Source of the DNA: a virus
IMG/VR virus record: IMGVR_UViG_3300035665_000135
Coordinates: 1-35,940 of that record
Length of the DNA: 35,940 nt
Direction: 5' to 3' (one strand)
Part shown: piece by piece, positions 8,053 through 35,940 of the stretch
Numbering within the stretch: the stretch's first letter is position 1
Layout of the letters: each line of letters begins with the position of its first letter
Position numbers and translations under genes: made by a program
Notes under the pieces: model-generated
Databases searched by the model: none
The model's input: the letters and a program-made list of their open reading frames with translations, nothing else
Told to the model about the DNA's origin: nothing

Positions 8053-8372
8053 GAGACCCACATGCTGCGGTTGATTACATCCTAAAACACGCTGAAAAGT
8101 TTGCAGACGCTAGGGCTCAACGTGTGTATCTAGAAGAGTTCAGAAAGAGCAAGAAAGCCCTGCTAATGCAGCTAAACACCGCTCAGCCGATCTCTGCCCA
8201 AGAGCGTGATGCGTACGCTCACCCTGAGTATTTGGAGCTTTTAGAGGGCTTAAAAATAGCCGTGGCGATAGAAGAAAAGTTACGATGGGATCTTGTTGCT
8301 GCTCAGGCCAGGATAGAAATTTTTCGCACTGAATCGGCAAATAACCGAATGCTTGATAAATCTACGATGTAG
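8049..8372 (+). CDS. Hypothetical coiled-coil-like phage protein (107 aa)
   Basis: ATG 8049 overlaps the upstream stop (ATGA). 107 residues, helical, with the motif AHPEYLELLEGLKIAVAIEE, then LRWDLVAAQARIEIFRTES and a final NNRMLDKSTM. This YAHPEY...LRW.LVAAQARIE.WR pattern is common in small proteins of proteobacterial phage recombination regions. Their function is unknown. No catalytic residue pattern seen. Confidence 0.6.
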   Translation: MRDPHAAVDYILKHAEKFADARAQRVYLEEFRKSKKALLMQLNTAQPISAQERDAYAHPEYLELLEGLKIAVAIEEKLRWDLVAAQARIEIFRTESANNRMLDKSTM

Positions 8373-8378
8373 AATGCG

Positions 8379-8432
8379 GTTGTGGCTACCTTTAGCGGGG
8401 GAAAAGCAGACTGAACCACTGCCTGCCACAAC
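8379..8432 (+). repeat. Inverted repeat in the leader of the homing endonuclease gene
   Basis: GTTGTGGC (8379-8386) pairs with GCCACAAC (8425-8432), and inside lies GCAG (8406-8409) / CTGC (8419-8422). The structure fills most of the 88-base gap before the next gene. It could be an RNA element, an insertion-site remnant for the homing endonuclease or chance. No T run follows, so it is not a terminator. Confidence 0.35.
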
Positions 8433-8460
8433 TTCATATGGTTCTTATGCGAGGTTCAGC

Positions 8461-8985
8461 ATGATTGAATATCTTAAAAACAATTTCCGTTATCAAGACG
8501 GTTTTCTTTACCGAACCACTGTTAGAGGTGGTGAAAAAATCGGGAAGAAAGCAGGGTGGCTTACCTATTGCAACGGCAGGCCTTACTGGAAAATTTCCAT
8601 CGATGGCAAAACCACTTATTTGCACCATGCAATTTTTATTTTGCATAACGAATACAAACCAAAATATATAGATCATATTGATGGAGATTCCACAAATAAT
8701 CGCATTGAAAATTTAAGACCGGCCACACAAAGCCAAAATGTAGCCAATAGCGCCCTAAGTTCTAAAAATACTAGCGGTTTTAAAGGTGTTACATATTTAA
8801 AGGGTAGCGGAAAATGGAAAGCCCAGTTAATGAAAGACATGAAACATATAAGTCTTGGTTCGTATGCCACAAAAGAAGAGGCTTACGAAGCATACAAAAT
8901 TGGCGCAAAAAAATATTTTGGGGATTTTGCTAGGCCAGAAAAAAAGCAAGCAAACGCCAGAGCAGAAATTAGGAACACCCAATGA
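8461..8985 (+). CDS. HNH-AP2 homing endonuclease
   Basis: The start at 8461 is chosen because GAGG lies upstream; a longer frame from 8353 is out of context. 174 residues. HNH_3-type core with HH55-56, D71-H72-I-D74-G and N84-L-R86 (YIDHIDGDSTNNRIENLRP), then an AP2-type DNA-binding domain around 105-157 (SGFKGVTYLK, GKWKAQL, LGSYATKEEAYEAY). Such free-standing nucleases cut an intron-less or target allele and spread. The base composition is more AT-rich than its neighbours, fitting insertion. It is coupled to the next gene by ATGA. Confidence 0.9.
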   Translation: MIEYLKNNFRYQDGFLYRTTVRGGEKIGKKAGWLTYCNGRPYWKISIDGKTTYLHHAIFILHNEYKPKYIDHIDGDSTNNRIENLRPATQSQNVANSALSSKNTSGFKGVTYLKGSGKWKAQLMKDMKHISLGSYATKEEAYEAYKIGAKKYFGDFARPEKKQANARAEIRNTQ

Positions 8986-11475: not shown

Positions 11476-11705
11476 TTGTCTTGCTTATGGTCTAGCTTGT
11501 CAAAGATCTTAGCGAGCATACTTTTTATGTCGCTGATGTCTTTCTCGTAATCTGGCTTTAGAACATAGGCATGAGGCAAACCTTTTTCTAAATCTCTAAG
11601 GTCGCGCTGTAGCTCTTGCTGAGCTTCCCAAACCACACGGAAGAACCAGCCGAATGCAGCAGAGAGAACGCCAAAAGCGATATTAAGCAGCGTTTGAGAG
11701 TCCAT
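11472..11705 (-). CDS. Small lysis-module membrane protein
   Basis: The start at 11705 (77 residues) is chosen because the protein then begins MDSQTLLNIAFGVLSAAFGW, like related small phage proteins; an upstream start at 11738 is possible. One N-terminal transmembrane helix (about 5-22) is followed by a charged helical part ending in KIFDKLDHKQDK. It may be a holin partner or accessory lysis factor. It is not a typical Rz/Rz1 pair. It overlaps the glycosyltransferase gene by 23 bases and the endolysin gene by 4. Confidence 0.65.
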   Translation of the reverse strand: MDSQTLLNIAFGVLSAAFGWFFRVVWEAQQELQRDLRDLEKGLPHAYVLKPDYEKDISDIKSMLAKIFDKLDHKQDK

Positions 11706-12750
11706 AGTAGTGAAGGTTCCTAACGAGTCGTTCGTCATCTGGCGATAGATCTACCGCCGCCACACCGTGTCTTATAGCTTCGTCTTTTAAGCCCAGATGA
11801 TGAGCTGCTACCGCTGCGAGATCATGCGGTTTCGCACCCCAGACTTCAGGGTCGCATGTGTAAACCAGTTGTTTGTCTTTGATCTCCAATGCCATTGTAG
11901 CCGCGTGGAAGCATTCTTTCCACATAGACTTCATGTAAAAGGACATCGCCGCGTCTACCCACGGCTCACGCGTTCCAGGAGCCTCGGCTATCGCCATCCT
12001 GTACCACTTTAAAGCCTCCCAAGGGTTCTGTTTATGGTCATAGGCCTTGCCTAACAACCGCATGGCGTAGCACCGCTCATTCGGCCATGTCGCCTCTGGC
12101 ATGTCGAGATAGGTGTTGAGTGCGGTTATAGCCTCATCCCAAAGGTGATAGAACGTAAGCTCACGAGCAAAGTAAAAAGCATTGCGCGGGCACCGCGGAT
12201 CTTCTTTTACCGCCATCCTAAGAAGATCTAAATACTGACCGCGGCTTTTAGTCGGATCTGGGTGATGGGAAACTAACAGTTTGTCGGTTTGCGCGTAAAT
12301 CTCTGTTGTGCGTTGATCCGGCCTTGGATATTCATGGACCGGATGGTGCCAGTGGTAACCAACTCGGTGATGGATCTTCTCGTAATAGAACAGAATGTTC
12401 TGACCCCAGTCAAATTTGTACCGGAGCCTAGTCGTTTCAGGTTGCCATACGCGCTCAATTTCCTCGCGCCATCCTGGCTCAAGAACCTCGTCTAAGTCTA
12501 GAGACACACAGACATCGTAGTCACCGGGAATAAGGCACAGCGCAGTGTCTCGCGCCATATCGAATCGCCAAGGCTTGACAGATATATCGTAGACAGTAGC
12601 CCCGCATTCTCTTGCTAGGCTGGCCGTGTTGTCAGTTGATCCTGTGTCAGCGATCAGGATCAGGTCTGCGTCTTTAGCGGAGTCACAGAACCTTTTTACA
12701 AACTGCTCTTCGTTTTTTGATATTGCATATACGCAAATTTTTAGTGTCAT
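11683..12750 (-). CDS. GT2 glycosyltransferase with TPR-like C-terminus
   Basis: 355 residues. The GT-A donor-site motifs are KNEE (12-15), DTGSTDNT (35-42) and D85-L-D87-E88 (DxD). A C-terminal half (about 190-350) has helical repeat patterns (YFARELTFYHLWDEAITALN, ALKWYRMAIAEAPGTREPW) typical of TPR. No transmembrane segment is seen, so it is probably cytoplasmic. It might glycosylate phage fibres or modify host surface sugars. The acceptor is unknown. It sits between the fibre genes and the lysis genes, and its 3' end overlaps the next gene. Confidence 0.85.
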   Translation of the reverse strand: MTLKICVYAISKNEEQFVKRFCDSAKDADLILIADTGSTDNTASLARECGATVYDISVKPWRFDMARDTALCLIPGDYDVCVSLDLDEVLEPGWREEIERVWQPETTRLRYKFDWGQNILFYYEKIHHRVGYHWHHPVHEYPRPDQRTTEIYAQTDKLLVSHHPDPTKSRGQYLDLLRMAVKEDPRCPRNAFYFARELTFYHLWDEAITALNTYLDMPEATWPNERCYAMRLLGKAYDHKQNPWEALKWYRMAIAEAPGTREPWVDAAMSFYMKSMWKECFHAATMALEIKDKQLVYTCDPEVWGAKPHDLAAVAAHHLGLKDEAIRHGVAAVDLSPDDERLVRNLHYYGLSNAA

Positions 12751-17174: not shown

Positions 17175-19013
17175 TTAGAACTCTAAAACGACCCATTTTT
17201 CACCAGTGCCTACGGTCACTGTGACGTTGGTGCTGATTGTTACAGGCCCAACACTTAGGCCGTTATTACCATCTGTGACTGTGTAATTGCTTGAAATCGT
17301 TTGCTGGTTTTCAAGAATGACTGAAGAACCACCCCCGCCACCACCACCGCCCATCAAACGGATCTGAATCTCCTCACCGTTCGCTGGTGCCGTACCAAAC
17401 ACCACATTCGTACCGGAAATCGTGTAGTCAGTGGTTGGCTCTTGTGTGACACCGTTCAGAATGGCTAGGACGTTATCCACCGTCATGCCAGACGCACCGG
17501 CAAAACTTGTCGTTGATCCATCACCTGTGTAGGTGTAAGTGGCGTAAGAAGTTCCACCACCGCCGCCACCGCCACTAATCGTCACGGTCACAGCCGTTCC
17601 TACAGCAGACGCGGTCACACCTGAGCCAACAAAGTCAAAGCTCGTAACGCCGGAAGTTAATAGAGAGCCTTCATCCGACACCGAGATATTAGTGCCAGTA
17701 CCAGCGGGTCCTGTTGGGCCGGTAGGCCCTGCTACTGTTGACGCACTGCCCGTTGGTCCTGTGGGCCCGCTCGTTCCTGTAGTCCCAGTAGGTCCGGTAG
17801 GTCCAGAAGATCCCGTGGGTCCAATATCACCCTGAGCTCCCGTGGGACCGGTAGGGCCTGCAACTCCGGAAGTCCCGGTGGGTCCCGTCGGACCTGCTGC
17901 ACCGTTGGCTCCCGTGGGTCCTGTCGGGCCAGCAATACCCTGCGATCCGGTTGGGCCTGTGGGGCCGGCAACCCCCTCAGCACCAGTTGGTCCCGTGGGC
18001 CCGGCTGCACCAGAAGTTCCGGTTGGACCGGTAGGTCCAGCAGCGCCAGAACTTCCTGTCGGTCCGGTTGGCCCATCTATACCATTCGCCCCAGTAGGGC
18101 CTGTGGGTCCAGCAATTCCCTGGGCTCCAGTAGGTCCGGTAGGACCATTTGATCCGCTCGCCCCAGTGGGACCAGTAGGTCCGGCTACGCCTTGAGCACC
18201 AGTAGGGCCAATATCCCCTTGCGCCCCTGTAGGCCCTGTAGGTCCTGCTGCCCCTGCACTCCCAGTAGGCCCTGTGGGGCCGTCTAAACCATTGGCGCCA
18301 GTCGGTCCTGTAGGTCCGATTGCTCCAGTAGGACCTGTAGGCCCAAAGCTTCCACCAGGAATATTGACCGTAACCGCGTTGCCAACAGCGGTCGCAGCGA
18401 CACCAAGACCGACAAAGTCAAAGCTGACAACGCCGGTCGTAATAATGGCGCCTTCATCGGCTACAGAAATATTAGTGCCCGTTCCCGCTGGGCCGGTAGG
18501 TCCTGTAGGGCCGGATGCCCCTGTGGGTCCTGAACTACCAGTCGGGCCCGGAACAGTCGAAGCCGCCCCAGTAGGACCTGTCGGTCCGCTAGCGCCAACG
18601 TCTCCAGTCGGGCCGGTAGGTCCGGCTACGGTAGATGCTGCGCCTGTAGGTCCGGTCGGGCCACTAGAACCAGACGCGCCTGTAGGGCCTGTTGGTCCCG
18701 GTGTTGTGGAAGCAGCTCCGGTCGGGCCTTGCTGCCCTGTTGGACCAGTGGGTCCTGCACTACCGGTCGGCCCTGTAGGACCCGTGGCTCCGCCGCCAAC
18801 AATAGTCACCGTGACATCGCCACCCACTGCCGTAGCGGTGGCTCCCGGGCCTGTAATGTTGAGCGAGGTTAGGCCAGACGTAATCTGTGTACCTGCATTA
18901 GATACAGGAATGTCCGCTCCCGCTCCCGCCGGACCCGTCGGACCGATTACTCCCTGATCGACGACAAGCGTTATCTGGCTTGCGCCGCCCACTACCAGAT
19001 CAATATCGCTCAA
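17175..19013 (-). CDS. Collagen-like tail fibre protein
   Basis: 612 residues. TTG start with a strong upstream GGGGTGA. Two collagen blocks of G-P-T-G-P-T-G-type triplets (about 77-180 and 223-440) alternate with three related beta-modules at about 33-75, 181-221 and 442-483 (cues [27 protein letters not shown]). A C-terminal beta-rich part follows with two Gly runs (GGGGGGG). Collagen-like phage proteins form triple-helical fibre shafts. The three modules and two collagen blocks look duplicated in the protein. Confidence 0.85.
17694..18347 (-). repeat. Long collagen-coding repeat block
   Basis: About 218 codons of near-regular G-x-y triplets, mostly GPTGPTG units separated by short variable triplets. 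On the plus strand they appear as repeated CCTGTAGGTCC-like units. The long imperfect DNA repeat can shrink or grow by slippage. It also explains the long Pro/Val-rich open frames on the opposite strand, which are not real genes. Confidence 0.85.
18474..18785 (-). repeat. Second collagen-coding repeat block
   Basis: About 104 codons of GPTGPTG-type triplets interrupted by AASTVPG-like spacers, a spacer also seen in the J-like gene (ASTVPG). This suggests exchange or common origin of the collagen blocks. It lies upstream of the longer block in the same gene. Confidence 0.8.
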
Positions 19014-19567: not shown

Positions 19568-22500
19568 CTAAGGCTTTTGTTCTAAAGCCGCAATCCTTTG
19601 TTCAAGCTCTTTGATTGCATTTGTCAATACCGCAATCATCTCAGGCATCGCTAAACCCAGCCTCGTCCCCTTTGGGGTTTCGATCTGAGAAACCACTTCA
19701 GGGATGACAGACTGCACATCTTGCGCGATAAATCCTAAGTGCGGATCGGTCTGTCCTATGTAGTTAAATCTTACGGCCTGAAGTTGCAGAACCTTTTGCA
19801 AGCCGCCTGTGTAGTCCTGTATGTTTTCTTTTAGATTTCTGTCTGACGAATTTACCCATGATCCAGCGTCAGCGTACGCATTCCCGTTAGTGTTGAATGT
19901 CCAGGTCTGAGATGCGCCACTTGTGTAAAGAACAAGATTCGATCCTGCGGCATAACTTCCCGAGCTGTTTGTGAATACCCAGGAATTATCTGCAAACGAT
20001 GTGCCGCGCAAACTTGCAGTCTTGCCAGAAGAAAGCGCAATGCTATTTGTCCAAGGGTCTGGAAGCGAAGGCGTGGCACCGGTAGGGCCTGTGGCCCCTT
20101 GCGGTCCGGTAGGCCCAGGAACCGTAGATGCCGCCCCAGTAGGTCCCGTAACTCCCTGCGGACCCGTAGGCCCCGGAACTGTGGAAGCCGGTCCCGTAGG
20201 ACCTGTATTTCCTTGCGGTCCAGGATCACCTTGAGGCCCTTGAGGCCCTTGAGGGCCCTGTGGACCCGTAGGCCCTGCAACGCCAGCAGACCAACTGCCA
20301 TCACCCCTCAAAAATGTTGTGGTGTTGTTTGGGATGTTTTGGATCTGCGTAAAGCCGGAAGATGTGTTTGGGAAGTAATAAGTATTAGCAGCAATACCAC
20401 CAGAAGTGATCCTGATCGCGTAGCCGTTGGCGTTGGCAAACGTAGACGCGTTGCCGCTTGTCGAACTGGTTTTTTCTACAACCAAAGCCTCCGCAACAAA
20501 GCTCGAAAGTTTTAAGCCTTTAACTAAAGGCGAGCCCGCTCCATTAACAATTTGCGCGGTAAATTGTCCGCTAGCGCCGCCATTAAAAACTACAGGGGAG
20601 TCGCTAAAAGGGTAATTAACTGCGTTGATTTTTAAAATCGTGTTGTCGTAACCCGAAACCCCAAGAGAGAACCAAGGCGTCGCCCCACCGTAAGTCGTAT
20701 AACCCTGTATCTCGAGGTTGTTGGAATTATTAATGGTGATGCGATTCGCGCCAGTGCCAGAAGCAATCTCGCCCCTAAGATAAGCAGCGGAAGCGTAAAG
20801 ACCGCCTGACGTTTTATCAAGATACCAGCCAGCCGTTCCGTAGCTAGATGATGTTGGTGGAATCGGCCCGTTATAGTTATCGGACAGAATGCTCTGAAAT
20901 ACCGACGCGGCTATTGGCCCTGTCCATGCCGTCGAGTTAGCAGGAACTCCGTCGACCGCAACACCATTGGCGTTATATCTGCCTTGGAGATACCAAAGCA
21001 CCTGCCCGATCGTAAGTGAAGGCATCGTGGAAGACCAGCCTAGCGGAACGGACGAACCAGACGTTGGTGTCGTAAATGTAGGCGTTGCTGCCGTTTGCGA
21101 TTGAACGAGATAAGCGTTGATAAAAGCAATCCCAATCAATCCAGATCCGCCTGTAGGTCCAGAACCTCCAGTTGGTCCGGTGTTACCTTGTGGACCCTGG
21201 GGCCCCTGTGGCCCCGTGGCACCGCCCGGTCCTGTTGGCCCGGCCATGCCTGTAGGAGACCACACAAGTGGCGCACTAGTTGCAGATAGCGAGCTTTTCG
21301 CAGATTCATTTGCAACTGAAAATGCAAAGTACCAAGTGTTGCCAGCAATCTGTAAGTTCTCAAACTTTACTGTTGATCCGTTTGCAAAAATAGATCCGTT
21401 ACTCAACACCTGAGTGCTCATGACTTTCCAGTCTGTGGCTGAAGGCGTTGCGCTAGATGTATAGAAAAGAGTAACGGTTGTCACGCGTCCCGTAGTGGGC
21501 ATCGTGCAGGTAGCGGAAAAAGTCGGAGGCGCAGCAGAAGGCGCAAGGTCTCCAAGCACAGGAGCATTTAGCGAAGAAAAAAATGTCGGAGATGGAAGGC
21601 TGGAGTTAGGCGCAGGAGCAAATGCTGTGATGCTTGCATCGTTATAAACGTCTGCGTTGTACTCGGAAAGTTCTAGTGTCGCGCCGAGGTTGCCGTCATC
21701 GACAGTCGCCTCCGACACCTTCATGACGCGGAAGAGTTTATTCGTCCATCCGTAGTCAGCGTTAGTGATGTCAACAACATCGCCAGCGTCTACCTGAATG
21801 CCAGGATAGGAAGATGTGATCGTGACAATCAAATCTTCTCTTGCCTGCTCCAAGCGTCGGTTACCAAGGTATTGAGCCTGCACTGAGTTGTTGCAAAACT
21901 CCAGGCTTGTCGTTTGTCTGTTGTCTGGTTCATTGGGATACCGAAGGATCGCTGGAGTCTCCATGTAAACCATGTCCGGCTGATCTCGATTGTCCTTTGA
22001 TGGAAACTCAATCTGAATCTGGTTGATCTGCTGATTGATGTCGATTGCAGAGACCCTGATCTCACCGATAAGATTTGAATCATTAAACGAAAAAGTAGAG
22101 CTTTCTGCTTTGTTAATGATGATCGACCAAAGACCCGAGGCAGCGTTATAGGCCATCCATGAGTCTGAGCACTCCAACATCTTCTCGACGTTGTCTAACA
22201 CTGGTTTACCTGTGTCTACAACACCGTTAATTCGGTATCGAGCTTGAGTCGCTGAGCCGCCGCCAGAAGGCGTATAGGTGATAGTCTGATCGGAGTAAGT
22301 ATTGAGAGCTGTAGCACTTGCGGAATCCACAAGGCCCGTCATGCCTGCGCCATAACGATCATCGGTCATGTAGTCGTACCAAGCATCTCCAGGCTTACAT
22401 TCTGATCCGCCTTTTGGCAAGTGTGTGCAGTAGAACGTGATTGGCTGTAGACCGGTCGTCCCTGCATCCGCGTTGTAATTAAGTTTGACAATGGCAAACG

Positions 22501-23083
22501 CCAAACCATTCATCTGCCTACCAGACGAAGGCCAACGTAAGGCAGCAGGAATATCTGCGCCGCCCATAAATACATTGGGAGCCGTACCGTTTACAGCGGT
22601 GATAACACCAGCTTGAGTTGAGGTGTAAAGGCTGATGTAAAGATTGCCGCTAATTTTCGTGTCTGCGTTGCCGTCGCCATCTGTCAACGAAATGACTTTT
22701 GTTTGATCTGTATTATCAAATGTTATAAGACGGTCGCCGTAGTAAAACTTAGTTCGATCATAAGTAAAGGTTGCAGACGCATCTGAAGAGATGGAAGAGA
22801 TCGCAATGACGTAATACATCGTCTTTTGATCTGTGGAGAGAACGGCATCAACAAACGTACCGCCTAACCATGCGCTGCCATAAACGACAGGGATTGAATT
22901 GTTATTAGCCGGCGGCATTTGCTGCCGAGCGCCCATGTCCTGAGCCTGGGACGGCTTGCTACCAAACGCCCTTGTGACGACATAGGACACTGCAAAGTTA
23001 ATTGCAAATGTCGCAGCCGCTAAAGCTATAGATCCAGCTTGTAACGTAACGCCAAGGGCTGATAAAACGATGGATGCTGGCAT
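19568..23083 (-). CDS. J-like central tail fibre/hub fused to collagen and S74 chaperone
   Basis: 1171 residues. An N-terminal hydrophobic stretch (15-38), then hub-type regions as in lambda J ([47 protein letters not shown]). A fibronectin-like module (about 510-608), collagen block 612-648, a central beta part, collagen block 936-1003 and a C-terminal S74 intramolecular chaperone (about 1078-1171, with S1080-D1081 in [10 protein letters not shown]). S74 domains trimerise the fibre and then cut themselves off before the Ser. Host recognition is likely. The combination in one chain is unusual. Confidence 0.85.
20075..20278 (-). repeat. Collagen-coding block 2 of the J-like gene
   Basis: Codons 936-1003 encode GPQGPQ and GPTGP-type triplets with ASTVPG spacers, immediately before the C-terminal fibre tip and S74 domain. 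Confidence 0.8.
21140..21250 (-). repeat. Collagen-coding block 1 of the J-like gene
   Basis: Codons 612-648 encode a short collagen stretch ([24 protein letters not shown]). It marks the junction between the conserved J-like half and the variable C-terminal half. Confidence 0.8.
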
Positions 23084-23086
23084 GAT

Positions 23087-23524
23087 CTACTCTCGAAAGA
23101 AGGTCGCTTGCAGTGGTGCAAATTTGTATCTTGTGTAGTCAATTTCTGGTGAGCTGGGCATAAGACTCGTACAGACAATCTGAACTCGCTTTTGGTCAAG
23201 CATGTCTTGGGCTAATTTATTGAACCGCAGCCAAAGCCTGCCGCCAATAGATGTGTCTCTATATTCCGGCATGACCCACCACGCCACTTCGTGTAATTCC
23301 TTGACGGCGCTATTCCAAAAGTTACAAGTGACATAAGCGGCCAAAAAACCTCTTAGCTGATCGTCCACCAAAATAAAGCCGCGGCCTTTTAGCATCTGAT
23401 AAAACAGCGAACGGACATGGCCTTCGTTCTGATTGTGTTTTAGTGCTTTTATTCCTGCTTCTTCTGCGTAGGCTTTCATCATGTCGATTAGGTGAGGCAT
23501 GTCGTATTTTGTCGCGTATCTCAT
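23087..23524 (-). CDS. GNAT-like acetyltransferase
   Basis: 145 residues. A GNAT-type core: N-terminal helices (MRYATKYDMPHLIDMMKAYA), a strand pair (GFILVDDQLRGFLAAYV), HEVAWWVMPEYRDTSIGGRL (the acetyl-CoA loop region, a variant of R/Q-x-x-G-x-G) and a C-terminal VQIVCTSLMP. Many phages place such a protein just before the J-like gene. Its substrate is unknown. It overlaps the upstream tail-tip gene by 4 bases. Confidence 0.75.
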   Translation of the reverse strand: MRYATKYDMPHLIDMMKAYAEEAGIKALKHNQNEGHVRSLFYQMLKGRGFILVDDQLRGFLAAYVTCNFWNSAVKELHEVAWWVMPEYRDTSIGGRLWLRFNKLAQDMLDQKRVQIVCTSLMPSSPEIDYTRYKFAPLQATFFRE

Positions 23525-28255: not shown

Positions 28256-28427
28256 GAGCCCTCAGCACAGAAAGACAGACTGCTTCGGCACCGCCGGGGC
28301 TGGCTTCCGATAGGGCGGCATCCACCTCTTGTAAGGTAAAGGGATGCCCTTTTGCCATATCGTGAAGGTCGCCACGGAATTCGGCCATCAAAGCGACAAG
28401 CTCATCAAGTGTTGTTTGACCAACCAT
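28239..28427 (-). CDS. Hypothetical small protein (62 aa)
   Basis: The ATG at 28427 is chosen because GAGGG lies upstream; the longer frame runs antisense to the sense of the tube gene. 62 residues, acidic/helical, TTLDELVALMAEFRGDLHDM and SPGGAEAVCLSVLRAHAKSE. Function unknown. It overlaps the tube gene by 23 bases. Confidence 0.5.
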   Translation of the reverse strand: MVGQTTLDELVALMAEFRGDLHDMAKGHPFTLQEVDAALSEASPGGAEAVCLSVLRAHAKSE

Positions 28428-28899
28428 ATTGGTTCCCTCGCGGGTGTATTGTGAATGTAACTTGTGCTTCTGCGCCCGGAGCGGGATCAATTGTCCACTG
28501 ACTGACACGGCCATTGAAAGCAAAGTAGACGTTATTGGTTCCGTCTGTAGCTTTAATGATAAACGTGCGGTCAATTGTTCCGTTGTACGCGTCACCACGA
28601 AGCAAAAGAAGGTTTGTGTCAGCAGGATTCCAAGCGGCCACAACTGTCATAGACGTTGGAGCAGACTGAACTGGGATTTTGTCAGATTGACGCGAGCCAG
28701 CAACCGCAAAGTTAGCAACAGCATCGTCTTGACCGAAGGCGGGAATTGCTTCTACCGGAACTAAATTACTGGAAATAGCCAAGGCAGAAATAATTGTGTG
28801 ATCGTCCAAATCCGTAATTGGTACAACGGTTGGCGTAGCCCCCGGCTGGCAATATAGAGAGGCTGAAAAGCCGGGTAAAACTTTATTAGGGAGTGCCAT
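28405..28899 (-). CDS. Major tail tube protein
   Basis: 164 residues, beta-rich. PGFSASLYCQ, TDLDDHTIISALAISSNLVP, TSMTVVAAWNPADTNLLLLR, YNGTIDRTFIIKATDGTNNV and VTFTIHPRGNQYGW fit a tail tube beta-barrel. It follows the neck and precedes the chaperone pair, as in most siphophages. Position and size make this the tube, but no diagnostic motif exists. Confidence 0.7.
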   Translation of the reverse strand: MALPNKVLPGFSASLYCQPGATPTVVPITDLDDHTIISALAISSNLVPVEAIPAFGQDDAVANFAVAGSRQSDKIPVQSAPTSMTVVAAWNPADTNLLLLRGDAYNGTIDRTFIIKATDGTNNVYFAFNGRVSQWTIDPAPGAEAQVTFTIHPRGNQYGWSNNT

Positions 28900-29312: not shown

Positions 29313-29653
29313 CACACAGCCGTTGTCGGTTCGTTGCGATAGCAAGTGAGGGTTACCCACTGCCTATCGTCATGTTCGTAGACCTCGGCAATACGCCAAG
29401 ATTTTTCTCTGAACGTAATGCTGTAAGCCTCTTGCGCGTCCGAGATTGTGCGAATGTTAGGCGTGTAATTGACGACAAAATCCATCATGTTGTCGTATTG
29501 CCTGAACCGCTCCAGAGTCTTGATCCGGTTATGGACAGACTTTGTTTTTGCGCGAGTCTGAAACCACGCAGTCTCTGTCGTTGTTTGTTCACCAAGATTA
29601 GTGACTCCAAACGTCAGATTGTTAATCGTGATTTGATCGACGCGTAAGACCAT
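29312..29653 (-). CDS. Head closure-like protein
   Basis: 113 residues, beta-rich: QITINNLTFGVTNLGEQTTT, TAWFQTRAKTKSVHNRIKTL and AYSITFREKSWRIAEVYEHD, ending in WVTLTCYRNE. Size and location after the connector match head-closure proteins of the SPP1 gp16 / HK97 Hc1 class. Motif support is weak. Confidence 0.6.
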   Translation of the reverse strand: MVLRVDQITINNLTFGVTNLGEQTTTETAWFQTRAKTKSVHNRIKTLERFRQYDNMMDFVVNYTPNIRTISDAQEAYSITFREKSWRIAEVYEHDDRQWVTLTCYRNEPTTAV

Positions 29654-30297
29654 TACATCACCAGCGGCTTGTAAGGTCTCAACAACTGGTCAATCGCCCA
29701 CGGAAGTTGTTTGTGCTGGATTTCAGCAATGGCGGACCGGTTATTGTAGAAATGCGTGAGAAGCAAAAGACCGGCTTGCTTGACCACAGGGTACTGGCCG
29801 ATGACGCTACCCTGAAGGGTGTACTGGCACAGCATCGGCGCAGTCATGTAAGTATTGATGTTGTTGGGGACCTCAAACAAAACCAACTTGTTTCCTGTTG
29901 GATCGTAGTAATAGTTTGAGCTTGAGATGGTCGTAAGAACCGGCGGGTTAAGGTCGTTGTAATACTTAACGGTGTTAATCCTTACGCCGTTTTGCGACAC
30001 CTCTGGAAAGTCTAGTGAAACCGGAGCTGCCATCAAACCCGAGATCATGTAACCAACTTCATAAGTCACGTTACAGATCGGTACACCTAGATAGTCCTCA
30101 ATTGCCATGCGCGTAGCCAGCTCAAGCGATTCCAGATAAGTATCCTGCGACTCATCTGCAAACAAATTGAGCTGGTTGGTGATTTCGTCGAGCGTGAGCC
30201 ATTGCGTAACAATGTCACGGTTTGATTGCACTACCTTTTGGTAGTTGAACGGGTTACGCGAACCCGCTCCGAAATTACCCTGTAGCTGACTTGGCAT
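29653..30297 (-). CDS. Head-tail connector (adaptor, gp6-like)
   Basis: 214 residues. WLTLDEITNQLNLFADESQD and LESLELATRMAIEDYLGVPI fit the N-terminal alpha helices of the gp6-like/DUF-type adaptor family, and VKQAGLLLLTHFYNNRSAIA fits its C-terminal helix. It should bind the portal ring and the next neck proteins. Start ATG two bases after the capsid paralogue stop. Confidence 0.75.
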   Translation of the reverse strand: MPSQLQGNFGAGSRNPFNYQKVVQSNRDIVTQWLTLDEITNQLNLFADESQDTYLESLELATRMAIEDYLGVPICNVTYEVGYMISGLMAAPVSLDFPEVSQNGVRINTVKYYNDLNPPVLTTISSSNYYYDPTGNKLVLFEVPNNINTYMTAPMLCQYTLQGSVIGQYPVVKQAGLLLLTHFYNNRSAIAEIQHKQLPWAIDQLLRPYKPLVM

Positions 30298-30298
30298 G

Positions 30299-31327
30299 TT
30301 AGGTTCCGATCAAACGAACGCCAGCGGTTACATCACGCACAGTCGAGACCAAACGCTTTTCAGCGTAGATCGTAATTGTCCCAGGCTGCGTCTGCTCCAT
30401 GCGTTGCAGCGTCATCTCCGAATAATCAACGATCCACATAAACCGAGGCCAGTTGGCTAGGTAAATGGGAGAAGCTCCGATAGCTGGGGCATCTAAGTAG
30501 GGATTGACAATGACCGGCCAGCCCATGATGTTGACACCCGGACCTTCGCCATCCTCGCCCGTTTCAACAAGCGCATAAGAATTGCCAGCATGAGTGTATT
30601 CACGCAGAGTCTGTAATGCGGTTGGGTGCATCATCCACGCCGTTCCAGGCATTCTCCAAAACTGACCTGGAAGAGCGTTGGCAACATCCACAAGGCTTTC
30701 CCACTCGATCCCGCCAGCATGACCATAACCGACCGTATTGAGCGTGTGGATGCCGTTAGTAATGGCCGTTCCTGAGCTGCCATAAGCCGCAGTAGAACCC
30801 GCTGTTCCCGCGTACATCTTAAGACCGCGCAGACCGTTAGTTGCGCCTGTGCTTGTAGTGGTCGATCCTGCCTGATCGTTATTGATCGCCATTGACGCGG
30901 CTTCGATCTGGCTAAATTCCATTGCAAGATCTTCAGCGAGCGCAGCATCAAGACCGTTGATGTCACTCATCGCCGCCGCACGAATCGGCATCTGAGCCGA
31001 AATGACGCGCATGGGAAGCTGCCAAATGCTGGTGGCGATATTCGGTGATCCGCTGTTAGCGTTTACCGTGTAGCCCCAAGGGTTTGTAGAGTTAGCCGCA
31101 TTACCAGTCTTAACAACAAACTGAATATCCGAATCCGAGGTCATCGTCTGGTTAGCGTAAACCCGGAAAGGGTTCCAGTAACGCAGACTTGCAAAGACAT
31201 CTTCGTTATAGACCCGGCCACCAACGCCGGAGCCCGAGCCCGTAAGGGCTGAGGCTTCAGCGAGGTTCACCTTGGCTTTGCCCTCGTGGAGAGCCTGCTT
31301 AAGCCCTTCTAAAATAACCTGTTTCAT
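30299..31327 (-). CDS. Second HK97-fold capsid protein (paralogue without delta domain)
   Basis: 342 residues, plainly related to its upstream neighbour. Shared signposts in order are EASALTGSG-x-x-VGGR, NP-x-R near the start, WGYTV, SIWQ, AQMPIRAAA / AQFPIRTAA, AMSDINGLDA / ALDDIDGLEP, INNDQAG / QNNDQSG, NGLRGL / DGLRGLDQYAG and VRDVTAGVR / VRDPNAGVR. It begins right before the mature part and so lacks an N-terminal scaffold. GGAGAG lies upstream of the ATG. It may be a vertex, minor or alternative capsid protein. Confidence 0.8.
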   Translation of the reverse strand: MKQVILEGLKQALHEGKAKVNLAEASALTGSGSGVGGRVYNEDVFASLRYWNPFRVYANQTMTSDSDIQFVVKTGNAANSTNPWGYTVNANSGSPNIATSIWQLPMRVISAQMPIRAAAMSDINGLDAALAEDLAMEFSQIEAASMAINNDQAGSTTTSTGATNGLRGLKMYAGTAGSTAAYGSSGTAITNGIHTLNTVGYGHAGGIEWESLVDVANALPGQFWRMPGTAWMMHPTALQTLREYTHAGNSYALVETGEDGEGPGVNIMGWPVIVNPYLDAPAIGASPIYLANWPRFMWIVDYSEMTLQRMEQTQPGTITIYAEKRLVSTVRDVTAGVRLIGT

Positions 31328-31344
31328 AGTCTCTCCATAGAGGG

Positions 31345-31362
31345 AGAGGGCTTTCGCCCTCT
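31345..31362 (-). other. Hairpin between the two capsid genes
   Basis: Perfect 7-base stem AGAGGGC / GCCCTCT with loop GAAA on the minus strand (GNRA type), without a following T run. It lies 4-22 bases after the stop of the first capsid gene and before the ribosome site of the second. It could be an RNA stability, processing or weak attenuating element that sets the ratio of the two proteins. Confidence 0.5.
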
Positions 31363-31366
31363 TAAA

Positions 31367-32716
31367 TTAAGCCGCAGTGCCAGTCGAGCGATAACGTACG
31401 CCAGCGTTAGGATCGCGCACCGAAGTAGCTGCACGAGTCTCGCCGTAGAACGTGATCGAGCCTGGGAGCGTCTGGTCATAACGACGCAGAACCATGCTCA
31501 GACGCATAACGATGGTGTGGAACAACTGCCAATCGCAGAAATACATCGGATAGTAGGAAGTTGTGCCAGCAGCGCCGGTTGTGGGCTGAGAAGGATTGTC
31601 GACATACTTGTTGACCACCACATCAAAGCCAAGCAACTTACCAACGATGCCATCATCACGAGCCAAGCCGTCGATATAGATCGGACGCTTCTGATCGTCA
31701 ACCAAACCACGGATGCCCTGCAACAAGATTGGGTTGATCATGAAGCGAGCGGTCGGGGTCCAGTATTGCTGTGGCAAGCTGTAGATGAAGTTAACAACGT
31801 CTTTGTAAACGATGTTATTTGCACCGACAGTGTTTGCGTTGGTGGTCAACTGGTCATACGTCGCAAGGCTATGCAGACCGTTGGTAGTTGCCGTTCCCGA
31901 GGTTCCGAAAGAAGCCGTGGAAACTGTGCCGCCCGTGTAGGTTGCATTTGCGCCTGCATACTGATCCAAACCGCGCAGACCATCAGCACCGCCTGTTGAT
32001 ACCGAGGTTCCGGTTCCGCTCTGATCGTTATTCTGGACCATCGAGGTTGCCATTGCCTGCTGGAATTCCATCAGCATGTCGTCAACAACGTTGGGCTCAA
32101 GACCGTCAATGTCATCAAGCGCAGCAGTACGGATTGGGAACTGTGCGTTCAAGTCTTTGAGGATCACTTGCCAAATCGACGTTGACTCAGTTGTTGGCGT
32201 TCCGTTATTTTGAACGGTATACCCCCATTGAGCGCCAGAATTCCCCTGCTTCACGCGAAACTGATAGGCTGAACCGTCAGTTGCAACAATACGGGAAATA
32301 TTCATCATCGGATTGCCAAGACGCTTAGCGGCAAACACAGGATCGTAAGCGGTACGGCCACCAACGTCGTAACCAGAACCGGTAAGCGCAGATGCTTCTT
32401 TGATATACCCGTCGAACTGATCGACCGATTCAAAGATCTTTACTTCGCGCTCAACCTGATTGCCACCCTTCACGTACTCTTTCAGCACATCACGGAAGCG
32501 ACGGTTTGCCTCACCGCGGATCGTCTTGTGGATGGGTCGAATGATTGATGGAGCGGCAATCTTTGCCTCAAGAGCGGCAAGTTTTTGCTCGGTTTCTGCT
32601 TTAACTGCCTGAACAGCTTCGGTAACTTGAGTTTTTACAGCCTCAGCGGTTTCAGCAAGTTTTGCAGCGTTGGACGCTTCAATTGCATCTAGTTTTTCAA
32701 TGACTTTCTCAAGCAT
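31367..32716 (-). CDS. Major capsid protein with N-terminal delta domain
   Basis: 449 residues. N-terminal coiled-coil delta-like domain (residues about 1-100, with LDAIEASNAAKLAETAEAVK), then the HK97-type shell: YIKEASALTGSGYDVGGRT, WGYTVQNNGTP, LNAQFPIRTAALDDIDGLEP, RFMINPILLQGIRGL and TSVRDPNAGVRYR. The S78 protease next to it should remove the N-terminal part during maturation. AAGGAA gives a good ribosome site. It is the likely main shell protein. Confidence 0.9.
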   Translation of the reverse strand: MLEKVIEKLDAIEASNAAKLAETAEAVKTQVTEAVQAVKAETEQKLAALEAKIAAPSIIRPIHKTIRGEANRRFRDVLKEYVKGGNQVEREVKIFESVDQFDGYIKEASALTGSGYDVGGRTAYDPVFAAKRLGNPMMNISRIVATDGSAYQFRVKQGNSGAQWGYTVQNNGTPTTESTSIWQVILKDLNAQFPIRTAALDDIDGLEPNVVDDMLMEFQQAMATSMVQNNDQSGTGTSVSTGGADGLRGLDQYAGANATYTGGTVSTASFGTSGTATTNGLHSLATYDQLTTNANTVGANNIVYKDVVNFIYSLPQQYWTPTARFMINPILLQGIRGLVDDQKRPIYIDGLARDDGIVGKLLGFDVVVNKYVDNPSQPTTGAAGTTSYYPMYFCDWQLFHTIVMRLSMVLRRYDQTLPGSITFYGETRAATSVRDPNAGVRYRSTGTAA

Positions 32717-32726
32717 GATAGTTCCT

Positions 32727-33503
32727 TTATCGGGTTGCGATTGCCTTCAGCAGCTCACGGTATTGGAGCGCCTCCAACAGTTTCACCGCTGCGTCCGACT
32801 CACTCGGATTGGCGGGTTGCTTGGCAGATTCAGCGTCACGCTGTTCAATAATCTGTTTCAGCAAAGCAGATGCAGCGGTTGCATCCTTTCTTGAAAGCCC
32901 TGCATCACGCAGTGCCTTCTCGATTACTCTTGGATTGGGCTTGTTGTCCATCCAATATTCAAGTCTTGAGATCTCGGCTTTAGGATTGTTAGGGTTCATC
33001 ACAATCGAAACCTCAGCCAATCCGCCTCGGATAATTTGAAAAAAACCGTCATAACCATCACTGCCAGATGTCAAAGGCTCGCCACTCTCATCGACCATTT
33101 GATACTCGTCAGCGTAAGCACCGACAGAAACACCGCCGACCATACGCGGCGATTCCTTCATGATCGTGTACAGATCTGATCCTGCCGTGGTATTCAGGAA
33201 GAGTTTCCCAGTTCCGGTCATGCCTTCGTCGGTAATGTCGAACTTTGACCACTCGCCCACCGGCATCATGTCGCTTGAGTGCTGGAAGTACATGGGGAGC
33301 GGCCTGCCGGCTTCCATCCAGCTTTCGTGCCACATTTCAAAAGCCTCTGGCGTGTAAAAGAATCTGCGCCCGTCTGCGCCTTCTCTTGCGCCCCAGGTTG
33401 TCAGAGTTGCCTCGATCTCGCCGGTTGGTTCGCCGGTTGCCTCGTCAGCCATACGGCCAAGCTCAACCTTTGCCTCGGTGAAGAATTGAATGTGCTTAGC
33501 CAT
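32727..33503 (-). CDS. Prohead protease, peptidase S78 family
   Basis: 258 residues. The S78 signature is MYFQHSSDMMPVGEW (H75) and VGGVSVGAYADEY (S126), with a preceding GADGRRFFYTPEAFEMWHES. The conserved His and Ser are in the right order. It digests the delta domain of the capsid protein during maturation. The C-terminal 80 residues are helical and may act as a scaffold-like part. AAGGAA lies upstream of the start. Between portal and capsid, the typical HK97 order. Confidence 0.9.
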   Translation of the reverse strand: MAKHIQFFTEAKVELGRMADEATGEPTGEIEATLTTWGAREGADGRRFFYTPEAFEMWHESWMEAGRPLPMYFQHSSDMMPVGEWSKFDITDEGMTGTGKLFLNTTAGSDLYTIMKESPRMVGGVSVGAYADEYQMVDESGEPLTSGSDGYDGFFQIIRGGLAEVSIVMNPNNPKAEISRLEYWMDNKPNPRVIEKALRDAGLSRKDATAASALLKQIIEQRDAESAKQPANPSESDAAVKLLEALQYRELLKAIATR

Positions 33504-35001: not shown

Positions 35002-35940
35002 TCAAAACACCCTGAATCCGTACGATTCGTTAGGGGCAGGGTTATCAAGTGAGCAGTGCATCGCAATAATCAAGGCAATAATTCCATCGACCTTGGCGTG
35101 TTTGTCCACACCAGCCTTTTTTACCTTGATGTTGCCTTGCACATCTGTGAACACTTCGCAGTTTCCCAATTGGTGGCCTAAAAACTGGTTGCCATCGTGT
35201 TTAATTTTGCGTCCAAGAATGAGCTTTTCTACATGCTTGGATGGGTTACTTAACACCGCCATCCCTTGCCCAACTTTCTTGACTGGCATTCCTGCTTCGT
35301 ATAGTCGCGCCACCAGGGCAGCAGCGTTGTACGCGTCATATCCGACTTCGCGTACGTCGTATTTCTGGCCTTGCCCAATAATATACTCGGAAATCTCACG
35401 GTCGTCCATAACATTTCCTTCCGTGATGTGCAAGAGACCAGAGTTTATAGCCTGACGAAAAATATCTTGGTAATGAGTCGGCAAGAGTTCAAATCCGTCC
35501 TCCGGCAAAAAGAACTTCCACTCGGCCTCGTAATCATCTTCGCCAAATCGTTTTAGCGTACAGACCGCATTAAGATCTCGGGTCGCTGCCAAGTCAAAAC
35601 CGATAAAAACAGCTTCTGGCTGTCGATCAGTTAAGCCTACAGACGCATCCCAGTGAGACCTGTCTACCCAAGCGGTTTCGGCAGATACATAGACATTCAG
35701 TGTCTTGCAGAGAAACTCGTTAAGCGCAGCCGGCTTAATCTTGGCTTCTTCGCATCGAGCGGCAATCGCATCGTGCGAGACAGAAATGTTGTGCATGGGA
35801 TTGGCTTTGTGCCAGACCGCAGGGTCTCGCCAATCATCGCCTGCATCCAAAGAATAAAGCAGGCCAAACCATCTGGGGTTATCAGGTACATCCTGGTTAA
35901 GAATGCGCTCCATAACCTGTAGGTCTTCAAAGAACTTGGT
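35002..35940 (-). CDS. terL: Terminase large subunit, C-terminal part (5' end cut by window)
   Basis: The open frame reaches the window edge, so the ATPase domain and start lie outside. The visible 312 residues contain the nuclease domain. FIGFDLAATRDLNAVCTLKR carries the first metal-binding Asp, DDREISEYIIGQGQKYDVRE and VGYDAYNAAALVARL follow, and KVDGIIALIIAMHCS provides a late Asp of terminase_1-type nucleases. This part cuts the concatemer during packaging. The stop at 35002-35004 is 9 bases from the portal ATG. Confidence 0.9.
   Translation of the reverse strand, partial: TKFFEDLQVMERILNQDVPDNPRWFGLLYSLDAGDDWRDPAVWHKANPMHNISVSHDAIAARCEEAKIKPAALNEFLCKTLNVYVSAETAWVDRSHWDASVGLTDRQPEAVFIGFDLAATRDLNAVCTLKRFGEDDYEAEWKFFLPEDGFELLPTHYQDIFRQAINSGLLHITEGNVMDDREISEYIIGQGQKYDVREVGYDAYNAAALVARLYEAGMPVKKVGQGMAVLSNPSKHVEKLILGRKIKHDGNQFLGHQLGNCEVFTDVQGNIKVKKAGVDKHAKVDGIIALIIAMHCSLDNPAPNESYGFRVF

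Follow-up and report, generated by a model that had tools for sequence, protein, structure and literature searches.

In bacteriophage T4 the hexamers of the head are made of gp23 and the pentamers of gp24, the latter probably derived by a duplication of gp23 (PMC9958956). The two proteins lose N-terminal segments of different length, 65 residues in gp23 and 10 in gp24, and some mutations by which gp23 can take over from gp24 are located in the gp23 A domain (PMC9958956). Downstream of gene 23 the T4 record shows an intrinsic terminator (AGGGAACC-TTCG-GGTTCCCT-TTTTT), then segD, a GIY-YIG endonuclease gene, and then gene 24. A paper of 2025 gives T4 as the single virus with two HK97-fold proteins in separate roles (PMC12407261). 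Bacillus phage B450 is annotated with 'two distinct major capsid proteins' (PMC12786184), thus two-capsid annotations exist elsewhere.

A widespread group of freshwater (lake) siphophages also encodes two related shell proteins, which stem from its own duplication event. The example reported here is found in the window, i.e. the whole stretch of DNA analyzed, a virus record of 35,940 bases in which the terminase gene is cut by the contig end. A preliminary description of this DNA pointed to two tandem HK97-fold capsid genes. Both are present on the minus strand, here termed MCP1 and MCP2, in a head operon with the gene order terminase, portal, S78 protease, MCP1, MCP2, head-tail adaptor, then tail genes. 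The features are as follows.

35002..35940, minus strand: terminase large subunit, 5′ end cut, assigned by position and open frame (TerL precedes the portal gene in phage P19250A)
33596..35005, minus strand: portal protein (PF04860, E-value = 1.1e-57)
32727..33503, minus strand: prohead serine protease, Peptidase_S78 (PF04586, E-value = 5.1e-08), the presumed processor of the capsid N-terminus
31367..32716, minus strand: MCP1, major capsid protein, 449 aa (PF05065, TIGR01554, AlphaFold2 model)
32399..32716, minus strand: scaffold-like (delta) N-terminal region of MCP1, residues 1-106 (AlphaFold2 helices, MCP1-only alignment columns)
31328..31366, minus strand: hairpin AGAGGGC-GAAA-GCCCTCT, 7 bp, directly after MCP1 (family comparison)
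30299..31327, minus strand: MCP2, second HK97-fold capsid paralogue, 342 aa (PF05065, AlphaFold2 model, identity to MCP1)
29653..30297, minus strand: head-tail adaptor (PHROG 40/442), starting 1 base past MCP2

The gap between MCP2 and the adaptor gene has a median of 2 nt family-wide.

Other genes of the window were noted in passing. Two tail-region proteins (17175-19013 and 19568-23083) display long collagen-like GPTGPTG repeats (PF01391, E-value = 5.7e-38 and 2.8e-8), and the 1171 aa collagen-like protein carries a C-terminal Peptidase_S74 chaperone domain. A GNAT-type acetyltransferase (23087-23524; PF00583, E-value = 1e-4) is situated within the tail gene cluster; contig L166 has a similar-looking gene at this position (8243-8695). 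There is one tail-tube-like gene in the window (28405-28899), and two tandem paralogues of this type with 66% identity are found in contig L165 (4745-5239 and 5255-5770). A family-2 glycosyltransferase with weak TPR-like repeats (11683-12750) lies near lysis-type genes.

MCP1 and MCP2 share 144 of 349 aligned amino acids (41% identity, E-value = 6e-74). The BLASTP alignment covers the entire mature part, thus the homology is global and goes far beyond the short motifs on which the pair had originally been called paralogous; a chance similarity is rejected by the E-value over this length. Both proteins score above the curated cut-offs of PF05065 (24.2 bits; MCP1 72.2 bits, E-value = 6.1e-20, MCP2 70.1 bits, E-value = 2.6e-19, Pfam profile search) and of the NCBIfam model TIGR01554 (27.5 bits; MCP1 85.7, MCP2 67.9), and both match PHROG 10, 'major head protein'. 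The identity and the two sets of profile scores confirm the capsid pair as paralogues.

The N-terminal ends differ. MCP1 carries a scaffold-like region of ~105 residues, in which the AlphaFold2 model places a long helix at positions 2-54 and another at 66-83, and the HK97-fold shell part begins at about residue 107. An alignment of 49 divergent MCP1/MCP2 pairs shows segments present in MCP1 only, and these take up most of residues 2-92, i.e. the coiled coil. MCP2 is without this coiled coil of ~80 residues, and the proposal that the second copy lacks the large scaffold-like domain agrees with the alignment. The accompanying statement that MCP2 starts where the mature part of MCP1 would begin is not exact, although it holds as far as the coiled coil is absent: 23 residues precede EASALTGSG in the window, and 22-42 residues do so across relatives. 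MCP2 opens with a conserved helix (consensus ITERILxGIKQTLETGxKVxIDL), after which comes the junction E-A-S-x-[IL]-T-G-S-G, largely common to MCP1. The short N-terminal sequence of MCP2 resembles a propeptide and may be cleaved off, and the S78 protease may cut both proteins at this common junction.

Both MCP1 and MCP2 are predicted to have the HK97 fold, with N-arm, E-loop, spine helix, and A and P domains. These elements are seen in the AlphaFold2 models, which give a pLDDT of 70.5 and a pTM of 0.73 for MCP2, and values of modest confidence for MCP1 (pLDDT 62.7, pTM 0.58). A Foldseek search yields >300 PDB chains at an E-value of 0.001 or better, the top ones being HK97-fold capsids. The best match of both models is the capsid of the Rhodobacter capsulatus gene transfer agent (RcGTA), 6tb9 (E-value = 2.2e-15 for MCP1 and 1.0e-14 for MCP2).

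In HK97-type capsids, the A-domain points to the five- or six-fold axis. Since it faces the capsomer axis, proteins that form hexamers and proteins that form pentamers should differ there. Identity between MCP1 and MCP2 is 58% in the N-arm and about 44% in the E-loop and P-domain, and falls to 31% in the initial A-domain segment and to 17% at the tip, with region boundaries taken from the general HK97 fold rather than from solved structures of the two proteins. Within MCP1, the corresponding identities are 63-86% (63% at the tip). The A-domain tip is thus the most divergent part between the two proteins, with the reservation that MCP2 is less conserved overall than MCP1 and that A-domain tips are variable in general. 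Three loops (window numbering 259-265, 290-297, and 378-385) are present in MCP1 only and are absent from MCP2 in the 49 divergent pairs.

The gene pair is also found in a cultured phage, Methylophilaceae phage P19250A (KX815270), where the two genes are adjacent and in the same order and the proteins are 59% (MCP1) and 53% (MCP2) identical to those of the window. In the P19250A annotation, the MCP1 orthologue is a 'gene transfer agent capsid protein' and the MCP2 orthologue a 'hypothetical protein'; a literature search found no published description of the pair. P19250A is the sole match at an E-value of 1e-5 among 50,697 phage records. Phage Venkman (MT375522), reported in one genus-level cluster with P19250A (PMC8163748), was considered as a relative and set aside: neither capsid protein matches it by tblastn, and its annotated head module is podovirus-like, with portal, scaffold, one capsid protein, and tail tubes A/B.

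Scans of IMG/VR and GTDB genomes show >300 loci, with identities down to about 60% for MCP1 and about 53% for MCP2. By profile HMMs, at least 303 loci among the matches listed have exactly MCP1 and then MCP2. Eighteen loci have one gene, each ending at a contig edge, and none of the matches listed has a single capsid gene where there is room for both. Nor is a single-capsid close relative found in the clade among the best 80 loci of each of five viral-contig scans. One contig, L126 (1181-3631), has both genes frame-broken, which is probably sequencing error rather than decay. An assembly artefact or a strain-specific duplicate is rejected by the at least 303 loci together with the cultured phage.

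A tree of 25 MCP1/MCP2 pairs and four outgroup capsids places MCP1 and MCP2 each on one side of a branch (SH-aLRT 83 and 76, a moderate family support, with long outgroup branches). The tree requires two label changes, the minimum, and the MCP1 branch is long (0.8 changes per site). As each protein is monophyletic with respect to the outgroups, the simplest reading would be one duplication before the clade radiated. Over 400 pairs, MCP1 has a median dN/dS of 0.056 (0.046 in its first 100 residues) and MCP2 one of 0.065; with such low values throughout, both genes are under strong purifying selection and all parts appear functional. A decaying copy is rejected by the MCP2 value. It had been allowed in the preliminary description that the second gene might prove degraded in related phages; instead it is kept in the two-gene loci, at least 303 in number, with a dN/dS of about 0.06. 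It is near certain that the two-gene capsid is fixed, old, and functional.

Of 50 divergent genomes, 49 have a GC-rich hairpin in the segment between MCP1 and MCP2, as opposed to 5% of shuffled sequences; in the fiftieth, L188, it has an internal mismatch. A hairpin with a U-run, resembling an intrinsic terminator, is present in 38 of the 50 genomes (0.3% of shuffles). Over the larger set, 255 of 257 members carry the hairpin, P19250A also has it, and the inner stems show 45 different sequences with pairing kept. No other terminator-like site is highly conserved within about 5 kb on either side; the bin that ranks second in frequency, about 50-250 nt upstream of MCP1, has one in 22% of the 50 representatives. 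Genomes of the clade to which the window belongs retain the stem GAGGGC-GAAA-GCCCTC and have no U-run; the ribosome-binding site of MCP2 is overlapped there by another small stem. When 101 nt of the window are folded, the hairpin region is no stabler than shuffles (z = −0.10), and it is the comparison across the family that speaks for the hairpin. Rfam gives no match in this region, and ribosome-binding-site strength displays no clear difference in expression between MCP1 and MCP2.

A hairpin without a U-run also follows the capsid gene of the single-capsid phages KS9 and PHB09. The hairpin therefore speaks for high expression of MCP1 and lower expression downstream, not for a vertex role, and as proof of the latter it is rejected. 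MCP2 lies past the hairpin and abuts the adaptor gene, which suggests smaller amounts: MCP2 is probably made below the level of MCP1, together with the low-copy connector genes. The intergenic hairpin/terminator, absent from the preliminary description, probably uncouples MCP2 expression from that of MCP1. In two contigs, a homing endonuclease gene of PHROG 314 is inserted between the hairpin and MCP2, as segD is in T4 (L200, 2290-2886, E-value = 6e-15; L231, 5357-5953, E-value = 5e-16; no Pfam match).

By analogy with T4, it is reasonably probable that MCP1 forms the hexamers and MCP2 the pentamers, the arrangement having evolved independently of gp23 and gp24. The vertex role appears to be the best supported of the options that had been raised for the second protein. 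One old tandem duplication would have led to a head built from two HK97-fold proteins. MCP1, with its scaffold-like domain and its gene upstream of the hairpin, would be the abundant subunit and make up the hexamers; MCP2, less abundant after partial termination, would make up the pentamers of the eleven vertices not occupied by the portal. MCP2 would be taken into the prohead lattice by way of conserved contacts of the N-arm and E-loop, would depend on the scaffold domains of MCP1 for assembly, and would be trimmed by the same S78 protease as MCP1 at the shared junction. A T=7 head, assumed from the genome size of 36-39 kb, would carry about 360 copies of MCP1 and 55 of MCP2 per virion. The fuller statement, that the clade evolved its own vertex protein, that the split is not limited to T4, and that the conserved terminator fixes the proportion of MCP2 to MCP1, lies just on the likely side.

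MCP2 could instead enter hetero-capsomers with MCP1 or take random positions in the shell, as in the Family 2B encapsulin of Streptomyces lydicus. With 41% identity and with N-arm, E-loop, and P-domain conserved, co-assembly is plausible, and there is a precedent in an irregularly tiled HK97-fold shell of two components (PMC12407261). However, the members of an encapsulin pair share about 70% identity (PMC12407261), and MCP1 and MCP2 are far more diverged. In addition, MCP2 has no scaffold domain, and unequal amounts are expected from the hairpin. Such a mixed shell is doubtful. It is improbable that there are two kinds of particle or that MCP2 switches the size or shape of the head. RcGTA, the nearest solved capsid, forms oblate as well as icosahedral heads (PMC7296036) and the missing coiled coil could alter curvature, but RcGTA needs just one capsid protein for this variation, and MCP2 alone would be without a scaffold domain, no separate scaffold gene being evident alongside.

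The place of MCP2 immediately upstream of the adaptor gene, at the median gap of 2 nt, would fit a role in special capsomers surrounding the portal/adaptor vertex; an argument from gene order alone is weak, however, and a portal-proximal role is very improbable. A decoy, also raised in the preliminary description, is unlikely, and non-structural roles taken together (decoy, anti-defence bait, chaperone, or decaying duplicate) are hard to credit. MCP2 does evolve somewhat faster than MCP1, but it is retained in all relatives seen, at a dN/dS of about 0.065 and with the HK97-fold elements intact.

If MCP2 is the vertex protein, a division of the HK97 fold into hexamer and pentamer proteins occurs outside the T4 lineage as well. 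The two-capsid clade comprises hundreds of metagenomic contigs and a cultured member, with the pair retained throughout. A comparison of MCP1 with MCP2 provides candidate positions that specify pentamer versus hexamer, a long-standing question for this one fold. The small head should suit cryo-EM, and with P19250A in culture the vertex question is directly testable.

With respect to known systems, nothing essential differs in P19250A, where the orthologous pair, its order, and the hairpin are alike. The likeness to T4 consists of tandem HK97-fold paralogues, a shorter N-terminal region (here a putative propeptide) in the second protein, and a hairpin between the genes. The N-terminal shortening is 65 and 10 residues in T4 and would be ~105 and ~23 in MCP1 and MCP2. 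T4 is a myophage of 169 kb and the phages reported here are siphophages of ~36-39 kb, with the higher identity (41%) between the two proteins. T4 gp23 and gp24 match PF07068, whereas MCP1 and MCP2 match PF05065 alone, and BLAST of MCP1 and MCP2 against gp23 and gp24 gives no significant match. The two duplications thus appear independent, and descent from the T4 pair is unsupported. The RcGTA capsid Rcc01687 (6tb9) is, among solved structures, the closest to both proteins in profile as well as fold comparisons, but there one capsid protein forms pentamers and hexamers (PMC7296036). The S. lydicus Family 2B encapsulin likewise consists of two co-assembling HK97-fold paralogues (PMC12407261). 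It differs in being a cellular compartment with no portal or genome, with subunits ~70% identical and apparently mixed at random. A two-component encapsulin is rejected for the present locus, as the MCP genes belong to a phage head operon that also encodes portal, protease, and adaptor.
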